This document shows positions 24,500 through 35,581 of a stretch of 38,004 nucleotides of DNA, piece by piece (position 1 is the stretch's first letter; each line of letters opens with the position of its first letter). The stretch covers positions 1 to 38,004 of the forward strand of contig CAMJJO010000002.1 of the NCBI GenBank assembly GCA_946406095.1, given 5' to 3'. Under the pieces are notes generated by a model. That model was not told the origin of the DNA, ran no database searches, and saw nothing but the letters and a program-made list of their open reading frames with translations. Source of the DNA: an uncultured Bacteroidales bacterium. Its GTDB lineage: Bacteria; Bacteroidota; Bacteroidia; Bacteroidales; UBA932. Position numbers and translations under genes: made by a program.

Positions 24500-25695
24500 A
24501 GCTCGATAGCTTCGGCAAGGACTTCTATAGGATTGAGCACGGGAATTCCTGTGCTCATTTCTATTTGCCACTTGCAGGTCTCGCAGTCGGTCGCGACGTA
24601 TTCGGGGTTGCTGGTGCGGATGTCTTCGAACAGTTTGGAACCGATCTTCTGGGAGAAGCCGTAGTTCTCTTTCTTGAAGCCGAAGGTGCCGGAAATGCCG
24701 CAGCAGTTCTGGTCCAGAACCGTCAGGGTCACCCCCGGAATCATGCGCAGCAACTCTATGGAATAAAGCTGCCAGCCCATCTTCTGCATGTGGCAGGCCG
24801 TATGATATACCACCTTCATCCTGAAGTCTTTACGGAATTTCAGCTTAATCTCCCCTGAAGATATCTTTTCGTACAGCCACTTGGTTGCCAGCATTATATT
24901 GTCCCTTACATCGGAGTTCTGCAGGCCAAGCACGTCCGGGTACTCATCCCTCATGGTGAAGGTGCAGGTAGAGGACGTGGTCAGCACAGGCTCCCCTGCC
25001 TCTGCGGCCTTGCGAATGGATGCCAGATTCACGGCCCCCTGTTTCTTCGCCCTGGCGGCAAAGCCGTTGCTCATAAGGGCCACACCGCAGCATTTCTCCT
25101 TTTCGAGCAGATGCACGCCATAGCCGGCGGCGTTCAATATCTTCACCAGATCCTGCCCCAGTTTGGGATAGTTGTAGTTGACGTAGCAACCATGGAAATA
25201 GCTGACGAACCTGTCGAATCCGGACTGGTCCTGCTTGCGGAACCAGTTCACGAACTTCTGCTTCGAATACTTGGGGAACGTGCGGTGCTTGTCGACACCC
25301 AACATGCCATCCATCACGGACTTGACCGGCTTCAGCTGCAGCACCTCGTTCACCACCGGGGCGAACGGACTGGCCAGCGAGCCGACCAGGTCGGTGGATG
25401 CAAGGGTCCAGTCCCTGAGCCCGCGCAGGCCCTTCGCCTTGGCTTGAGAGCCGTATTTGATGCGGGCGGCCTGAATCATGTCCCCGATGTGCACGTCCGA
25501 AGGGCAGGCGACCTCGCAGCGCTTGCAGTTAAGGCAGTACTTCAGGGCATAGTCGAAGAATGCAGGGTCTTTCAGCCTGTAACGCTCCCCGTCCGGGCCG
25601 GCCTTCTTGGGGCCGGGATAATCCGGATTGACCTCCATCATAGGGCAGACCAATGTGCAGAGATTGCACTTGAGGCATTGTTCAAGATTATTCAT
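24496..25695 (-). CDS. glpC: Anaerobic glycerol-3-phosphate dehydrogenase subunit C
   Basis: Two ferredoxin-like Cys clusters (CLKCNLCTLVCP, CLNCKRCEVACP) and CCG-type motifs (CCGVALMSNG, CCGISGTFG); follows glpA and glpB. Confidence 0.92.
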   Translation of the reverse strand: MNNLEQCLKCNLCTLVCPMMEVNPDYPGPKKAGPDGERYRLKDPAFFDYALKYCLNCKRCEVACPSDVHIGDMIQAARIKYGSQAKAKGLRGLRDWTLASTDLVGSLASPFAPVVNEVLQLKPVKSVMDGMLGVDKHRTFPKYSKQKFVNWFRKQDQSGFDRFVSYFHGCYVNYNYPKLGQDLVKILNAAGYGVHLLEKEKCCGVALMSNGFAARAKKQGAVNLASIRKAAEAGEPVLTTSSTCTFTMRDEYPDVLGLQNSDVRDNIMLATKWLYEKISSGEIKLKFRKDFRMKVVYHTACHMQKMGWQLYSIELLRMIPGVTLTVLDQNCCGISGTFGFKKENYGFSQKIGSKLFEDIRTSNPEYVATDCETCKWQIEMSTGIPVLNPIEVLAEAIEL

Positions 25696-26206
25696 TGCAT
25701 ATATCTCCCACTGCAGTAAGATTAACTATTGCCTTCCCTCCAACCAGCACCCTTCCTTCGGCATCGGTCTTAACTCCGAATTTCATAAAAGGCTGAGGGG
25801 CCTCGAAATCGGGATCGAACCACTTGGTGCGGTCGGGATCATACACCACGTCCGCACCGAAAACGGGCTCCCAGATATGTTCTTTGTCGGAGAGCAGCCC
25901 ACGGGAAAAGAACTTGCCGGTAGCGAGCACATACTCATCAGCCACAAGGGGCTCGTCCATGTTGCGCGTGCGGATCTCCACAACCTTTCCGTCCTCTATC
26001 TTTCCGGAAATGGCCCTGTCTCCCCTCAAAACCACGGCTCCCTGCTTCTGGAGGGTAGCCAAACGGGCATAAGGGCTTTCGTACTTGACGGCAGAGAGCG
26101 ACAGGCCCTCAGACACAATGCAGACCTTCTTGCCTGCTTCCACCAGAGGCTCGGCGGCGGTGCATCCAGCCCATCCGCCTCCTATAATAATTACGTCAAA
26201 TCTCAT
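25688..26206 (-). CDS. glpB: Anaerobic glycerol-3-phosphate dehydrogenase subunit B, compact form (172 aa)
   Basis: MRFDVIIIGGGWAGCTAAEPL FAD motif, then IRTRNMDEPLVADEYVLATGKFFSRGLL and FEAPQPFMKFGVKTD matching the GlpB C-terminal region; overlaps both glpA and glpC. Confidence 0.82.
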   Translation of the reverse strand: MRFDVIIIGGGWAGCTAAEPLVEAGKKVCIVSEGLSLSAVKYESPYARLATLQKQGAVVLRGDRAISGKIEDGKVVEIRTRNMDEPLVADEYVLATGKFFSRGLLSDKEHIWEPVFGADVVYDPDRTKWFDPDFEAPQPFMKFGVKTDAEGRVLVGGKAIVNLTAVGDICNE

Positions 26207-28909: not shown

Positions 28910-28940
28910 CAAAAATAAGAAAAAAACGGCAGATTACAAA
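28910..28940 (-). promoter_or_regulatory. Bacteroidetes-type promoter for rfbB-glpABC
   Basis: On the minus strand TTTG (28940-28937) - N19 - TATTTTTG (28917-28910); the -33 element lies against the stop codon of the upstream gene. Confidence 0.6.
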
Positions 28941-30457
28941 TCTTTCACCTTAATAATGAGCGGTGCGGAAGTGGCAGGCATGGAGAAATGCACGTTTTCT
29001 CCCTTTCCTATCTCGACGTACGGCTGCCAGACGAGGGTGCGTCCAGCAGGCTCGGAAGGGGCCAGAGCCGAGGAATTGAGGGCAAGTGGATAGGAGCAGC
29101 CGCGGAAGTCCAGGATGCGCACGTGTTCATCGAAGGCGAGGGCGGACATGTCGTTACGGGTGGTCACGAAATTGATTATGCCGCAGAACGCCTTTTTCCC
29201 CATGACATATATGTTCTTGTAGACATAAACGTCCCTGAGGGCAAGTGCGTCATAGGCAAACAGCCTGCGGTGGTCGCTCACCGGCACTCCGTCCAGCATG
29301 ACGAGTGCCTCTTCCTTGTTGCCGTAGAACAGGATGCTCTTCCGTCCCTTGGAGTTCCGGACTCTAGCGTACGGAACCAGCTCGCGGATGATGTCGTCGA
29401 TGGAGTTGAAACGGGTATAGTCGTCCAGATGATACTGGACGCAGTCCTCTCTCGAGAGCAGGAGATTGTCCCTCTTGGGGAGGAAGCGGTGGAGGGTATC
29501 CGTCTTCACCGAAACCCCCAGAGCCCGGTTCCTGGCGAGCAGAGCGCTCCGCATGGATGGAGACAGGCGCATCTTCCTGAATGCCAGGCCTTCCGGAAGC
29601 ACGAAAGGACTCACCGGGGAGAAGTAACACTCCAGATTCTCCCCGGCATAATCGAAGATCTCGCACACCAGATCCCTCTCCCCATAGATGTTGTTGGTGC
29701 GGAAAGAGATGGTTCCGTCCGGGGAAATCACCCCGGTATAGGTGTCGGCGGCAGAACCGGGAGAGGATATCACGGGCACCAGCCATGGCCTGGAAACCAG
29801 TTCGGCCGCATCCTTTCCATACACCGTCGCACGCACGATTTCTCCGTCTTCCTCCTTCTCCCGGGGCACAAGCGGGACCGACTGCGGGCCGCAATCCTCA
29901 GGCCTCAGGCCATCATCTTCCACGACGGAAACGCAGACTACCCTGGCCCTGTCCCCGGCATTGCGGAGGGTGAGTTCCATCCTTTGCCCGAAAACTCCCA
30001 TGCTGAGTTCCATCCCCTCGGGAAGGTCCCTGCAAGGGGCCGGCTCCGGCATGGGGTCTTCGCATATCTCCACGCCCCCGCTCACTCTCGCTCCGGACAT
30101 GGTGTTGAAGACGGCGATATCCTGCACCTCGGCGCGGTCTGACTGGGCCGTGAATGCAAACAGCTTGTAGTTTCCGGTGGGGATTCCGGCCGGGAGTGCA
30201 AGCACGCCCGAGCCCTTCCCCTCTATCAGCGCGATTTTCGCGCTGGCGGCGATTCCATCTTCGGAAACGAGCTCTACGTAAGCGACCGCGGACGGCTTGC
30301 CGGCATCGTCTCCGTTCTCGCAGACGGCGCAGCACCATATGAAATCCCCGGCCACATACACGCTCTTGTCGGTCACGAGACGCAGCGTTTCGGCAGCATT
30401 CAATCCTGTCCGGGCCAGGAGGAGGCAAGTCAATATGAATATCTTTTTCAATCCCAT
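28934..30457 (-). CDS. Secreted protein with MG2/macroglobulin-like N-terminus and TonB plug-like C-terminus lacking a barrel
   Basis: 507 aa; signal peptide; LVTDKSVYVAGDFIWCCAVCENG...GIPTGNYKLFAFT (MG2-like) and ALVMLDGVPVSDHRRLFAYDALALRDVYVYKNIYVMGKKAFCGIINFVTTRND (plug-like). Confidence 0.7.
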   Translation of the reverse strand: MGLKKIFILTCLLLARTGLNAAETLRLVTDKSVYVAGDFIWCCAVCENGDDAGKPSAVAYVELVSEDGIAASAKIALIEGKGSGVLALPAGIPTGNYKLFAFTAQSDRAEVQDIAVFNTMSGARVSGGVEICEDPMPEPAPCRDLPEGMELSMGVFGQRMELTLRNAGDRARVVCVSVVEDDGLRPEDCGPQSVPLVPREKEEDGEIVRATVYGKDAAELVSRPWLVPVISSPGSAADTYTGVISPDGTISFRTNNIYGERDLVCEIFDYAGENLECYFSPVSPFVLPEGLAFRKMRLSPSMRSALLARNRALGVSVKTDTLHRFLPKRDNLLLSREDCVQYHLDDYTRFNSIDDIIRELVPYARVRNSKGRKSILFYGNKEEALVMLDGVPVSDHRRLFAYDALALRDVYVYKNIYVMGKKAFCGIINFVTTRNDMSALAFDEHVRILDFRGCSYPLALNSSALAPSEPAGRTLVWQPYVEIGKGENVHFSMPATSAPLIIKVKDL

Positions 30458-31626
30458 CCTTCAGGTTTTTCCAATGTTCCGCCGCTGAGACGGCAATCAT
30501 AGCAGAATGTCGGCACCCACAGCAGATTCGGGTCGGACATATAGGGATAATACCCCTGTTTATATGCCTCCAGATTAAGCTCGTTGAACGATTTTTCCGG
30601 GTACACCCCTCTCAAGGTCGAAATGATGTCGGTAGTGTAGTTGTCCGGGTTGAAGAAACTCCCCCTCCCAAGTGTATTGATATGGAACAGCCTCTTGGCA
30701 ACCTTGCTGACCCCGATATACCCGATCGCATAATCGTTCGGATCGGCCGCGTTGCGGATATTTCCTATCTGTTCGCCCGGGACCGGAGAGAACAGGGAAC
30801 CCATGCTCTCGGACCCTTCGTTGACTGCATTCAGATACCGGTACTGTGCTTCGGGGATGCTTCTGGCAATCAACCGCAGGTAATACTCCCCTGCCGTGAG
30901 CTTCTCGGAAGACGTCTTCATCGTGAGGAACTCATAGTTCTTGAGAGTCGATCCCTGCAGGGATTTCGCGATTTCCACTGCAGTGCGCCGGGAACCTGTC
31001 TCTTTCCAGCACCATTCATATTTCCACCAATCCTGAACCTCACTGATGTCGGAAGCATCTGAATGATCCTTTATGGCACCGGTCTTCAGGTCGAGCTCGA
31101 GGATTGGCGAACCCATGGGCGAACGATAGTGGTAGAGTTCTTCGTATTCCCATCTGTAGCAGCCGCTTTCGTAGTCGGAAGATAGGTTGAGGGCAAGGCT
31201 CAGGATGCCGTCCTGCACGCTTTCCACCAGACGCCCGATCTCCGGAGCCGGGGCCGGAGCCTGCCAGTCCGAGGCGAACGTTACCGGATCCTCTCCCTCG
31301 GCGCGTATCACTTCCGCAACCAGCCTGTAGCGGGTGTCGGATTCCGCAGTGGAGAGGTCTATGTCTCCGGGGCTTGCCTCATTGTAGACGGCCCCGTTCT
31401 CTGCCTCCACCTTGAAGGAGGCCTTGTAAACCCCTATACTGCTGGCCGTATAGTAGTTTGCATCGAAAGGAACTACCTGATTGGCAGTAAAGTGGCTCAC
31501 CGTCCCCAAGGAGATGTCGCCCTCTATCACCACCCTTCCGTATTCATCCGAAATGTCCGGCGTATAGGGATAGATGCACGAGAAAAGGAGCATCAGGACA
31601 GACAATATGACCAAACTTTTCTTCAT
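30448..31626 (-). CDS. DUF4249-type lipoprotein partner of a TonB receptor
   Basis: 392 aa; lipobox MLLFSC; VVIEGDISLGTVSHFTANQVVPFD...FKVEAENGAVYNEASPGDI pattern; TGATG overlap with the upstream TonB receptor. Confidence 0.8.
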   Translation of the reverse strand: MKKSLVILSVLMLLFSCIYPYTPDISDEYGRVVIEGDISLGTVSHFTANQVVPFDANYYTASSIGVYKASFKVEAENGAVYNEASPGDIDLSTAESDTRYRLVAEVIRAEGEDPVTFASDWQAPAPAPEIGRLVESVQDGILSLALNLSSDYESGCYRWEYEELYHYRSPMGSPILELDLKTGAIKDHSDASDISEVQDWWKYEWCWKETGSRRTAVEIAKSLQGSTLKNYEFLTMKTSSEKLTAGEYYLRLIARSIPEAQYRYLNAVNEGSESMGSLFSPVPGEQIGNIRNAADPNDYAIGYIGVSKVAKRLFHINTLGRGSFFNPDNYTTDIISTLRGVYPEKSFNELNLEAYKQGYYPYMSDPNLLWVPTFCYDCRLSGGTLEKPEGWD

Positions 31627-34600
31627 CAGAATATGATATTCAGGTTGATATAGGGCACGGGGGTGGCGAAAACGCTCAGTTTATAGGCATTGAGGGAGCT
31701 CCCGTCCTTTGTGTCGTAGAAGACGGAGTATGCGTTCTTACGGCCGGTCACATTGTAGCAGCCTACGGTGAAGGAAGCATGTGCAAGGGCCTTCAGGTAG
31801 TGCCCGGGATCGATGTTGAACGCGACGTCCATGCGGAAGTAATCCGGAATCCTGTACGCATTGCGCAGCGAGTATGCCAGCCTTGCTCCGTTGGCGTAGA
31901 TGTAGTAGCCGACAGGGAAGGTCACAGGGCGGCCGGTGCTGTAGTCGATGTTCAGCGAGAAACTGTACCGTTTGGTGAAGGCATAATTGCCGATAAACTT
32001 GAAATCGTGGGGTTTGTCGCTCGGAGCATTATACCAGCGCCCTCCGTTTATGGCCATCAGTCCGGTGTTCTGCGTATCCCGGAGGAAAGAACGGGACCAG
32101 GTATAGGACACCCACCCGTTGAGTTTGCCGACGCTTTTGCGGGCCATGAGCTCCACCCCGTAAGACCTGCCGGCGACACGCACAAGGTCATCCGCCAGAT
32201 TCTCGTTCATCACGAGGATTGCCGAATATGCATAATCCAGATGGTCCCGCACCTGCTTGTAATAGGTTTCGGCGCTGAGGTCCACCTTTCCCCCGAAGAC
32301 AGTCCAATAAATGCCTGTGGAGGCCTGGTAACCGATGGTGGGGCGTATCTTTGCGTTTGAAAGTTTCCAGGTATTCACGGGGGAGATGGAACTGCTGTTC
32401 GAAATCAGGTGGATATACTGGGCGGTGCTGTTCAGTCCGGCCTTGACCGAAAGCACAGGGGTGAACGAATAACGGCCGGAGAGCCGGAGTTCGGGATATG
32501 CGTAGAAACTCTTCCCCTGAGAGAAGGAAGAAAGCCGCAGTCCGGCATCGATGGAGTAGGAAGGATCCGGATTCCAACTGTCCGAGAAATACAGCGAGGG
32601 CTGGAGCGCAGTCTCCGTGGGGAGGTCTTTGGAAATCACTATCGACTCCTCCCCCAGGGGGCGCCTGTGGCCGCCGTCCAGCTTATAGTACAAGAGTTCT
32701 GCGCCGGCGTTCAGGGTGTGCGAGGCAGACAGCGGATGCTTCAGGTTCAGCCTCGCAAACATCTGGTCTACAGACGTTTTCAGGGTGTAAGCCTCGGCCG
32801 CATTCTGCTCTTCCTCCATCTCGTTGTTATAGTGGTCCAGGCCTATGGAAGTCTTCGCGGTCCAGGAGCCGGACTCCTTTGTCCAGTGCAGAGAAGCGTT
32901 GGCATTCCCGTAACGGAAGGTGGTGTCGGCTCCGAAACTGAATCCGTCCGAAGAGAGATATCCGAATGCCTGGAGAGTGGTGTTTTTATTCGGTTTGCGG
33001 GTAATCACGATGGTGCCGTCGTAGAAGCTGGCGGAGCCTCCGGAGAACTCGCTCGAAGTGGGAATCATCCCAAGCAGCCAGTCGGAGTAGGATGTCCTGA
33101 AGCCAGTGTTGATGGTGGTCTTGTGCCCCAGGGGGCCTTCCAGGTTAAGCCTGCTTGTAAGGAGCCCCAGCCCCAGCGAACCCCGGAACCCCTTGGCACT
33201 TCCCTCCCGCACCCCGACGTCCAGCACGGAACTGACCCTGCCGCCGACGGACGCCGGACCGCCCCCTTTGTGGAGCTCCACCCCGTCCGTCATATCCGGG
33301 CTGAATACGGAATTGATCCCGAAGAAATGCGTAGGATAATATATGGTATTGCCGTTGAAGAGGATGAGGTTCTGGTCTGTGCTGCCACCACGGACATTGA
33401 AACCGGCAGACGCCTCCCCGACAGTCTGAACGCCGGGAAGCGCCAGTACGACCTTGAGCACGTCACCTTCCCCGAAGGCGGTCGGGATCTTGGAAATCAG
33501 CCTGGAATTGATGGACGCCATGCCTATGTCGGAAGTCCTGTGCTGGCGCATGCTCTCCGCGGAGATGCTTGCCGCATCCAGCAGGGTGCTGCGGTCGTGC
33601 AACTGCACGTTCAGCACGCCGTCGCCGCATAGGATTACACTGAGTTTCTGCTCCTCCTTGTCGGGATCGTTGAAAGACAGTACGGTCTCTCCGACAGGGA
33701 TGGTCAGGCAATATCTTCCGTTCTTGTCCGAACGGGTGTATGTGCCAGATCCGTCATCCACTATCAGGACCCCGGCGAGAGGGACGGCTTCATCGTCCGT
33801 AATCACACCCTCTATCTTTGCAGATGTCGCGGCCCCGGCTATACCTATTCTGTAGATCTTGTTCTTGTATCTGGCATCTATGGTCTCCGTCAGGGTAGCG
33901 GCATCCGAGTGCATCTCGAAGTAACCGGCCGGGAGCGATTCTCTCACCTTCGTGCCGCTCCTCCGGACGGAAGGGGCGACCAGTTCCGCACCGGTGCCTT
34001 CCACCGGATGCCAGCTTGGGATGGTCTTCGAGAATGCGCCGTTTTCGGTGGCAGATGCAAGAATCCTTTTGGCCTTACGGGGCCTCAGGCGCACCAAGGT
34101 GCCCTTATCGAGCATCCAGAAACTCGTGACCATCTCGTAGAAAGTAATCAGTTTCTCGTCGTATTCCGGGTCGGTGTAGCCGATGTAGGCCGGGCCGTTA
34201 TGGTTCCCGGGCACCGAACGGTACTTCTTCTGCACCAACTTGAACACCGGAGTGTCGCTGTCGGATACCAACTGCATGAAGCGGGCGGGAGATCTGAAGC
34301 CCGCATACTCCAAGTTCACGAACAACTCGTTTTCGCGGGTAAACCATGCGACCTGGCGGGGATCCGGAGCTATGGCCGCGAAGTTCCTGTCCTTACGGAC
34401 CAGGAGTTTGTCTTCGCAGGCGTCTATCCTCACCTCCACGTCCTCATACAGACAGGCGTTGTAGTACACCGTTCCCTTCCGGAACGACAGCGTATCCCAG
34501 TATGGAGTGCCGTTGAAGCCGGATGTGTACTTGGTGGCGATGCGCCCTCGGAACAGCATGGAAGGGCTTTCACCGGGCTCCACCGCCTGTCCCGCCAGCG

Positions 34601-34661
34601 TAAATGGCAGCAGGAAAGCAAGCAGAAGCAGGGCTATTTCCTTTTTTGATACAGTTCCCAT
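31626..34661 (-). CDS. TonB-dependent receptor with long N-terminal extension plus carboxypeptidase-regulatory-like domain
   Basis: 1011 aa; CarboxypepD-like IEGVITDDEAVPLAGVLIVDDGSGTYTRSDKNGRYCLTIPVG begins around residue 280; plug-like ALPGVQTVGEASAGFNVRGGSTDQNLILFNGNTIYYPTHFFGINSVFSPDM; barrel ends PVPYINLNIIF. Confidence 0.92.
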   Translation of the reverse strand: MGTVSKKEIALLLLAFLLPFTLAGQAVEPGESPSMLFRGRIATKYTSGFNGTPYWDTLSFRKGTVYYNACLYEDVEVRIDACEDKLLVRKDRNFAAIAPDPRQVAWFTRENELFVNLEYAGFRSPARFMQLVSDSDTPVFKLVQKKYRSVPGNHNGPAYIGYTDPEYDEKLITFYEMVTSFWMLDKGTLVRLRPRKAKRILASATENGAFSKTIPSWHPVEGTGAELVAPSVRRSGTKVRESLPAGYFEMHSDAATLTETIDARYKNKIYRIGIAGAATSAKIEGVITDDEAVPLAGVLIVDDGSGTYTRSDKNGRYCLTIPVGETVLSFNDPDKEEQKLSVILCGDGVLNVQLHDRSTLLDAASISAESMRQHRTSDIGMASINSRLISKIPTAFGEGDVLKVVLALPGVQTVGEASAGFNVRGGSTDQNLILFNGNTIYYPTHFFGINSVFSPDMTDGVELHKGGGPASVGGRVSSVLDVGVREGSAKGFRGSLGLGLLTSRLNLEGPLGHKTTINTGFRTSYSDWLLGMIPTSSEFSGGSASFYDGTIVITRKPNKNTTLQAFGYLSSDGFSFGADTTFRYGNANASLHWTKESGSWTAKTSIGLDHYNNEMEEEQNAAEAYTLKTSVDQMFARLNLKHPLSASHTLNAGAELLYYKLDGGHRRPLGEESIVISKDLPTETALQPSLYFSDSWNPDPSYSIDAGLRLSSFSQGKSFYAYPELRLSGRYSFTPVLSVKAGLNSTAQYIHLISNSSSISPVNTWKLSNAKIRPTIGYQASTGIYWTVFGGKVDLSAETYYKQVRDHLDYAYSAILVMNENLADDLVRVAGRSYGVELMARKSVGKLNGWVSYTWSRSFLRDTQNTGLMAINGGRWYNAPSDKPHDFKFIGNYAFTKRYSFSLNIDYSTGRPVTFPVGYYIYANGARLAYSLRNAYRIPDYFRMDVAFNIDPGHYLKALAHASFTVGCYNVTGRKNAYSVFYDTKDGSSLNAYKLSVFATPVPYINLNIIF

Positions 34662-35581
34662 GAGTTGACCAGATTGTGCCAGACTGCATACAGTCCGCCT
34701 GCGACGGACGTGACCGGCGTCATATATGAAAGGCCCAGCCAGATGATGAATCCCGTATTCTTCTGCCCCAGGGCCTGGCCTGCAGTGATCGATTCCACAC
34801 GCCCGTAGCCTTTAGCCACCTTCCTGCCCAACCAGAACTGGAAAAAGCAGCAAATGAGGGATACCACGGCGATGCCGAAAACAACCAGCACGCCGATTCC
34901 GCTGTTTACAAGTGCTCCAGTGGCAAGCGACAGTGCCAGGGTCAGCCCCACGGACCAGACATAGAAAGCCCAGCCGGCGTACCTGGCAAGCCAGCGCTGG
35001 AGCCCCGGAAGCAGATAACGTATCAGCCAGGCCAGCACGCAAGGCAGCACCAGAATCGAGAAAACCCTTTTGATGATGGCCCAGAACGATGCCAGAAAAC
35101 TCATCTCCACACCCGGATGCACCATCGGGATCATCAACGGGATCAACAGTGAGGCCAAAGTGTCGGAAAGCACCGTGTATGTCATTATGCCCGGAAGGCT
35201 CCCTCCTATCTTGGAAGTGATGACCCCCGCAGCAGCAGCCGTAGGACAGATGAAGCACAACATCGCGCACTCCATCAAGATGCGCCCTCCCCCATGAGCC
35301 ACGCTCATCGCCATAAAAGCGAAAACCGCAAAGAGCGTTGCCTGGACGGCAATAAGCTCGAAATGCCATTTATGGAATCTGAGGTCGGTGGGGGCGACTG
35401 TGTTGAGCTGCAGGAAAAGCATTATGCTCACAAGGATGGGCTGCAGCTTTCTCGCCACCGCCATATAGCCCTCCTCACTGAAAGAAGGTACGTAATGCAG
35501 TATAAGGTAGATTGCCGCACCTGCCGTCATGGCCAACGGCAGCATCCAGTTCTTTAAAAAAGTTCTCTCTTTCTCCAGCAT
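34634..35581 (-). CDS. Bile acid:sodium symporter (BASS/SBF) family transporter
   Basis: 315 aa from ATG at 35581; polytopic; CPTAAAAGVITSKIGGSLPGIMTYTVLSDTLASLLIPLMIPMVHP and a QALGQKNTGF segment consistent with SBF-like transporters; the track start at 35584 is TTG. Confidence 0.75.
   Translation of the reverse strand: MLEKERTFLKNWMLPLAMTAGAAIYLILHYVPSFSEEGYMAVARKLQPILVSIMLFLQLNTVAPTDLRFHKWHFELIAVQATLFAVFAFMAMSVAHGGGRILMECAMLCFICPTAAAAGVITSKIGGSLPGIMTYTVLSDTLASLLIPLMIPMVHPGVEMSFLASFWAIIKRVFSILVLPCVLAWLIRYLLPGLQRWLARYAGWAFYVWSVGLTLALSLATGALVNSGIGVLVVFGIAVVSLICCFFQFWLGRKVAKGYGRVESITAGQALGQKNTGFIIWLGLSYMTPVTSVAGGLYAVWHNLVNSWELYQKRK

Follow-up and report, generated by a model that had tools for sequence, protein, structure and literature searches.

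A conserved four-part TonB-dependent transporter module of Bacteroidota, with a receptor fusion and a probably unrelated BASS neighbour in an uncultured Bacteroidales bacterium

A four-part module comprising a TonB-dependent transporter (TBDT), a DUF4249 lipoprotein, a secreted protein with MG2-like and plug-like parts (the MG2/plug protein) and a small secreted protein (NTD) is conserved phylum-wide in Bacteroidota. In the window, i.e. the whole stretch of 38,004 nucleotides analysed here, the NTD, normally encoded by a separate fourth gene, has become the N-terminal part of the receptor by fusion. Overall, positions 28934-34661 are best explained as a TonB-dependent outer-membrane transport module with four parts in three genes, unrelated to the BASS-family transporter gene overlapping it, and we consider this explanation probable. 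The BASS gene itself is a chance neighbour, an unrelated conserved gene which is at most co-transcribed with the string.

Gene string and its surroundings

The window originates from an uncultured Bacteroidales bacterium, whose near relatives are mainly ruminant-gut MAGs, including a Candidatus Cryptobacteroides. All four open reading frames of the string lie on the minus strand and overlap serially by 28, 1 (TGATG) and 10 nt; coordinates and overlaps were re-derived and agree with the initial annotation. The features are as follows:

34634-35581, minus strand: BASS-family inner-membrane transporter (ATG at 35581; partial PF01758; AxGQKN clade; outside the conserved module)
31626-34661, minus strand: TBDT (1011 aa, signal peptide; NTD, CarboxypepD_reg, plug and barrel)
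33909-34601, minus strand: NTD of the TBDT (residues ~21-251), homologous to a free-standing secreted protein of ~240 aa
33576-33815, minus strand: CarboxypepD_reg-like domain (CPD) of the TBDT (residues 283-362; 25.9 bits, below the cut-off, kept in homologues)
33240-33473, minus strand: plug domain of the TBDT (residues 397-474; Pfam Plug)
30448-31626, minus strand: DUF4249 lipoprotein, the proposed lid of the TBDT
28934-30457, minus strand: MG2/plug protein (secreted, no lipobox, no barrel)
30149-30379, minus strand: MG2-like domain of the MG2/plug protein (residues 27-103)
29135-29845, minus strand: CPD-like and plug-like part of the MG2/plug protein (residues 205-441; weak)

As for the domain calls made previously, three exceeded their Pfam cut-offs: SBF (PF01758) in the BASS protein (27.1 bits against 24.3; partial, residues 88-225), Plug (PF07715) in the TBDT (32.2 against 23.9) and DUF4249 (PF14054) in the lipoprotein (52.1 against 28.5), the last of which also carries the lipobox LLFSC. 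The MG2 call remained under its cut-off (16.3 bits against 32.8) and is backed by homologues (see below).

Downstream of the string, the window contains genes for dTDP-glucose 4,6-dehydratase and anaerobic glycerol-3-phosphate dehydrogenase, and the divergent gene encodes an outer-membrane protein. The open reading frame between glpA and glpC (25688-26206) encodes only 172 aa and represents a shortened GlpB; full-length GlpB of E. coli has ~420 aa.

Conservation of the module

Among 80 loci chosen by TBDT similarity alone, 72 had the complete set of NTD, TBDT, MG2/plug and one to three copies of DUF4249, and most of the eight exceptions were cut by contig or locus ends. This quartet was carried by Bacteroides fragilis Q1F2, Parabacteroides, Mucilaginibacter, Niastella, Hymenobacter, Rufibacter and Cyclobacterium, and the order TBDT-DUF4249-MG2/plug occurred far beyond chance. 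The pairing of TonB receptors with DUF4249, pointed out earlier as a theme of Bacteroidetes, is thus present here as part of a conserved string which has the MG2/plug protein as its third member. In nearly all loci, the DUF4249 gene adjoins the TBDT gene. Several quartets harboured two to three DUF4249 genes in tandem (L220, L235, L237, L239, L241, L242, L251, L252, L231, L162 and L151), as if one receptor might be served by interchangeable lids.

Three other TBDT-DUF4249 pairs of the window genome served as a control. Neither NTD nor MG2/plug was present near these pairs, which are located on short contigs. The number of DUF4249 genes given by a Pfam scan of this genome is a lower bound, since the scan missed the window copy. 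This suggests that the quartet is a subtype of the known TBDT-DUF4249 pair.

Fusion of the NTD to the receptor

The ~250 residues preceding CarboxypepD_reg in the window TBDT gave no convincing match to a Pfam family. In most Bacteroidota relatives, the NTD is a separate secreted protein of ~240 aa encoded beside the TBDT, and the fused and free-standing forms are clearly homologous (hhalign 99.9%, E 5.8e-31). Separate NTD open reading frames were found by phmmer in L144-L146, L150, L151 and L172. The separate NTDs mostly possess a signal peptide and no lipobox, and their genes are situated directly upstream (often at -4 nt) or downstream of the string; in another arrangement, an NTD relative ends the string (L158, L165, L166, L170 and L174). 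In L190, L192 and L203, a second NTD-TBDT pair directly follows the quartet.

Residue 236 onward of the window TBDT corresponds to residue 103 onward of an unfused sister TBDT, with 47% identity over plug and barrel. In fused TBDTs, NTD and CPD are mostly separated by 23-40 residues, while unfused TBDTs have ~162 residues ahead of CPD, indicating that the fusion replaced the signal peptide and an STN-like segment. In unfused TBDTs, this segment is represented by a sub-threshold Pfam match in L152 and elsewhere by a signal peptide and STN-like sequence recognised by eye. After a simple frameshift or an assembly join of two genes, the STN-like segment would still be there.

A quickly built maximum-likelihood tree requires approximately six changes of the label "fused", with at least five forced by well-supported branches and with the fused rows L143 and L191 placed in poorly resolved parts. 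It appears that the NTD was either fused to the receptor repeatedly or lost from it again; in both cases, it acts like a functional partner of the receptor. The structural model of the NTD was of low confidence (pLDDT 60), and a fold search gave no significant match.

The MG2/plug protein

The MG2/plug protein consists of a signal peptide, MG2, further beta domains, CPD-like and plug-like parts and a C-terminal beta domain; when it was scanned, only MG2 and the CPD/plug-like parts were found. MG2 was matched by 18 of 21 homologues, CarboxypepD_reg by seven and Plug by one. The second half of the protein (residues 205-441) is colinear with CPD and plug of the partner TBDT (residues 280-493), with a weak hhalign score (E 4e-4, probability 34%). 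The MG2 half of the name used in the initial annotation is therefore upheld by the homologues, while its plug half is weakly backed, and "barrel-less plug protein" is a plausible description. Across loci, these proteins mostly lack a lipobox. AlphaFold2 predicted with confidence (pLDDT 84.8) a mainly beta structure with a small alpha/beta part, and a fold search with the protein retrieved MG domains of alpha-2-macroglobulin and complement proteins. Kinship with the T9SS Plug was considered and is not supported, as PDB profile and fold searches yielded only MG-domain and weak TBDT-plug matches.

The likeness to the alpha-2-macroglobulin family lies in the MG2 domain (18 of 21 homologues, the window protein being sub-threshold); unlike members of that family, the 507-aa MG2/plug protein has neither the full MG series nor a bait region or thioester domain. 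The window genome also encodes a 767-aa MG2 protein (G000:C1:38491, L168) with no recognised TBDT or DUF4249 neighbour, which belongs to a related but separate family. In Bacteroides fragilis Q1F2, a protein of more than 1550 aa (L226:3-4661), for which NCBIfam gave no match, is encoded divergently from the quartet; judged by eye, it may be an alpha-2-macroglobulin relative.

The BASS gene

The BASS protein resembles BASS transporters such as Yersinia ASBT and PanS in its SBF match, and its C-terminal half aligns with ASBT structures; on the other hand, it scores 27 against a PanS cut-off of 400. At the sodium site, it carries A-L-G-Q-K-N where Yersinia ASBT has E-V-G-M-Q-N, so that the ExGMQN pattern is absent, alanine replacing the glutamate and lysine the glutamine. 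In ASBT, the glutamate and glutamine of this motif bind sodium. Nearly all of the 40 aligned BASS proteins kept G-Q-K-N (a few had A-Q-K-N) at the position of G-M-Q-N in ASBT. As the canonical E/Q residues are missing from this clade, a sodium/bile-acid symporter is not its natural reading: the residues argue against a canonical identity of this kind, and the Bacteroidales clade with GQKN (L034-L052, L054-L073) is possibly not sodium-coupled. In three relatives, the BASS gene was seen by eye among putative purine biosynthesis genes including a purF-like gene (L037, 2899-4005; L039, 9023-10036; L073, 9743-10741), and in other relatives it had different neighbours.

A BASS homologue was present in 41 of the 61 genomes searched. 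Relatives of TBDT, DUF4249 or MG2/plug were found by tblastn near none of 39 BASS loci from other genomes, most of which extended several kb on each side (less than 1 kb downstream in L044 and L052). Conversely, none of 39 loci around TBDT or MG2/plug relatives contained a BASS match even at E = 1, nor was BASS found near the TBDT in 80 further loci from named public genomes, giving 119 TBDT loci with a few shared between both sets. Both BASS and a close relative of the TBDT were found in at least ten sister genomes, in each case on separate contigs, and among the genomes examined the adjacency of the two genes was restricted to the window. The gene ahead of the TBDT varied: it encoded EF-G (L175), an HflX-like GTPase (L177), GH97 (L197, 31 nt), an esterase (L191, 46 nt), CorA (L219, 4 nt), a nucleotidyl transferase (L137, 3 nt) or an M23 peptidase with LysM (L156, 4-nt overlap). 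Since unrelated upstream genes at tight spacing are common for this module, the spacing between BASS and TBDT says little about function.

Proposed working and alternative explanations

The gene order and its conservation, the fusion, the loss of the STN-like segment, the DUF4249 lipobox and the absence of BASS elsewhere are direct observations. The module would presumably serve import and not export. The TBDT barrel would form the channel, and the DUF4249 lipoprotein would act as its lid, as proposed for BT2172/BT2173 (see below). N-terminal signalling domains of TBDTs, positioned ahead of the plug, are periplasmic (PMC11658791), hence the fused NTD should be periplasmic as well, with which the signal peptides without lipobox on separate NTDs agree; beneath the plug, it might function there as an adaptor or a gate. 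The MG2/plug protein would be a soluble envelope protein which repeats the CPD and plug cassette of the receptor without the barrel and, judging from gene linkage, probably binds to this complex as well. The window genome has genes for TonB proteins; no match to ExbB was found in its 74%-complete assembly, probably owing to incompleteness.

The initial annotation had proposed a two-membrane pathway encoded by one coupled operon, in which an organic anion (for example a bile acid-like compound) is imported through TonB and then passed across the inner membrane by the BASS protein. Apart from the shared strand and the 28-nt overlap in the window, which speak for it, this pathway depended on the BASS gene only, and the check suggested together with it, a synteny search for BASS with TonB/DUF4249 in other genomes, came out against BASS as a pathway member in both directions (0/39 BASS loci, 0/119 TBDT loci). 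The sister genomes with both genes on separate contigs, the equally tight unrelated genes upstream of the TBDT in other relatives and the non-canonical sodium site of the clade count against it too, and we now give it very little credence. Support for the presumed substrate falls away together with that for the pathway, as it was deduced solely from a BASS gene which is unlinked elsewhere and lacks the canonical E/Q residues. Alternatively, BASS might have been co-opted in the window lineage only, i.e. a chance juxtaposition became a co-transcribed unit and BASS now handles the TBDT substrate. The overlap indeed makes co-transcription likely in the window, yet this arrangement is known from a single genome, and a homologous BASS gene is kept without the module in most sister species, which places its main role elsewhere; such co-option is highly improbable.

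A different kind of alternative leaves BASS aside and supposes a role of the module in exporting or assembling a surface component or in sensing a signal, with the TBDT as a TonB-driven gate. A precedent for a TBDT needed for protein secretion exists in Myxococcus, where Oar is required for secretion of PopC (PMC6434023). Moreover, the MG2 domains are similar to their counterparts in alpha-2-macroglobulin and complement, i.e. proteins that handle proteins, and unfused receptors bear the STN-like segment described above. Against this, neither a secreted substrate nor a sigma/anti-sigma gene was recognised beside the module in the loci read, and TBDT-DUF4249 pairs occur without the extra parts, the role proposed for the pair in PMC11003636 being that of transporter and lid. 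We therefore regard export or sensing as unlikely and prefer the transport module with an unrelated BASS neighbour. As a tentative extension of this preferred reading, less likely than the reading itself, the quartet might constitute a distinct phylum-wide TonB machine, with the lid outside, the NTD under the plug and the MG2-CPD-plug protein serving as a mobile second plug or a cargo acceptor in the periplasm.

Comparison with known systems

TBDT-lid pairs are one of the main feeding routes of Bacteroidota and mostly have no known substrate; naming the system after the BASS gene would point to a wrong one. The window TBDT resembles receptors of the SusCD/RagAB type in its CarboxypepD_reg, plug and barrel, in having a surface lipoprotein partner and in a weak match to TIGR04056. 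It differs from them in that this match to the SusC/RagA model reaches 26.2 bits against a cut-off of 368, that the lipoprotein matches only DUF4249 in Pfam and not SusD, and that no glycan-degrading genes adjoin the string in the window. With FecA/FpvA-type receptors, it shares an extra domain ahead of the plug, periplasmic by topology; the NTD (~240 aa) is, however, unrelated to theirs and replaces the STN-like segment, and no FecI/FecR-type genes were recognised near the window string.

A close counterpart is BT2172/BT2173 of Bacteroides thetaiotaomicron, for which, according to PMC11003636 (citing Price et al., bioRxiv 2023, 10.1101/2023.03.17.533168), a TBDT and a DUF4249 protein were proposed to act as transporter and lid; the same paper states that disruption of either gene gave similar phenotypes and that pairs of this type are conserved across dozens of genera. 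The window likewise has a TBDT adjoining a DUF4249 lipoprotein, whereas its module adds the fused NTD and the MG2/plug protein (BT2172/BT2173 being compared as a pair only). In the open-access literature, where a single paper was found to mention DUF4249 by name, we found no account of the NTD, the fusion or the MG2/plug protein as a constant member of the set, and nothing on MG2 together with TonB receptors in Bacteroidota. That the quartet is retained in gut Bacteroides as well as in soil Mucilaginibacter singles out two unstudied proteins as transporter partners, and its presence in a culturable genus (Bacteroides fragilis Q1F2) makes it experimentally approachable. The TBDT-DUF4249 pair was already known; what is new is its combination with two further parts, together with the fusion.
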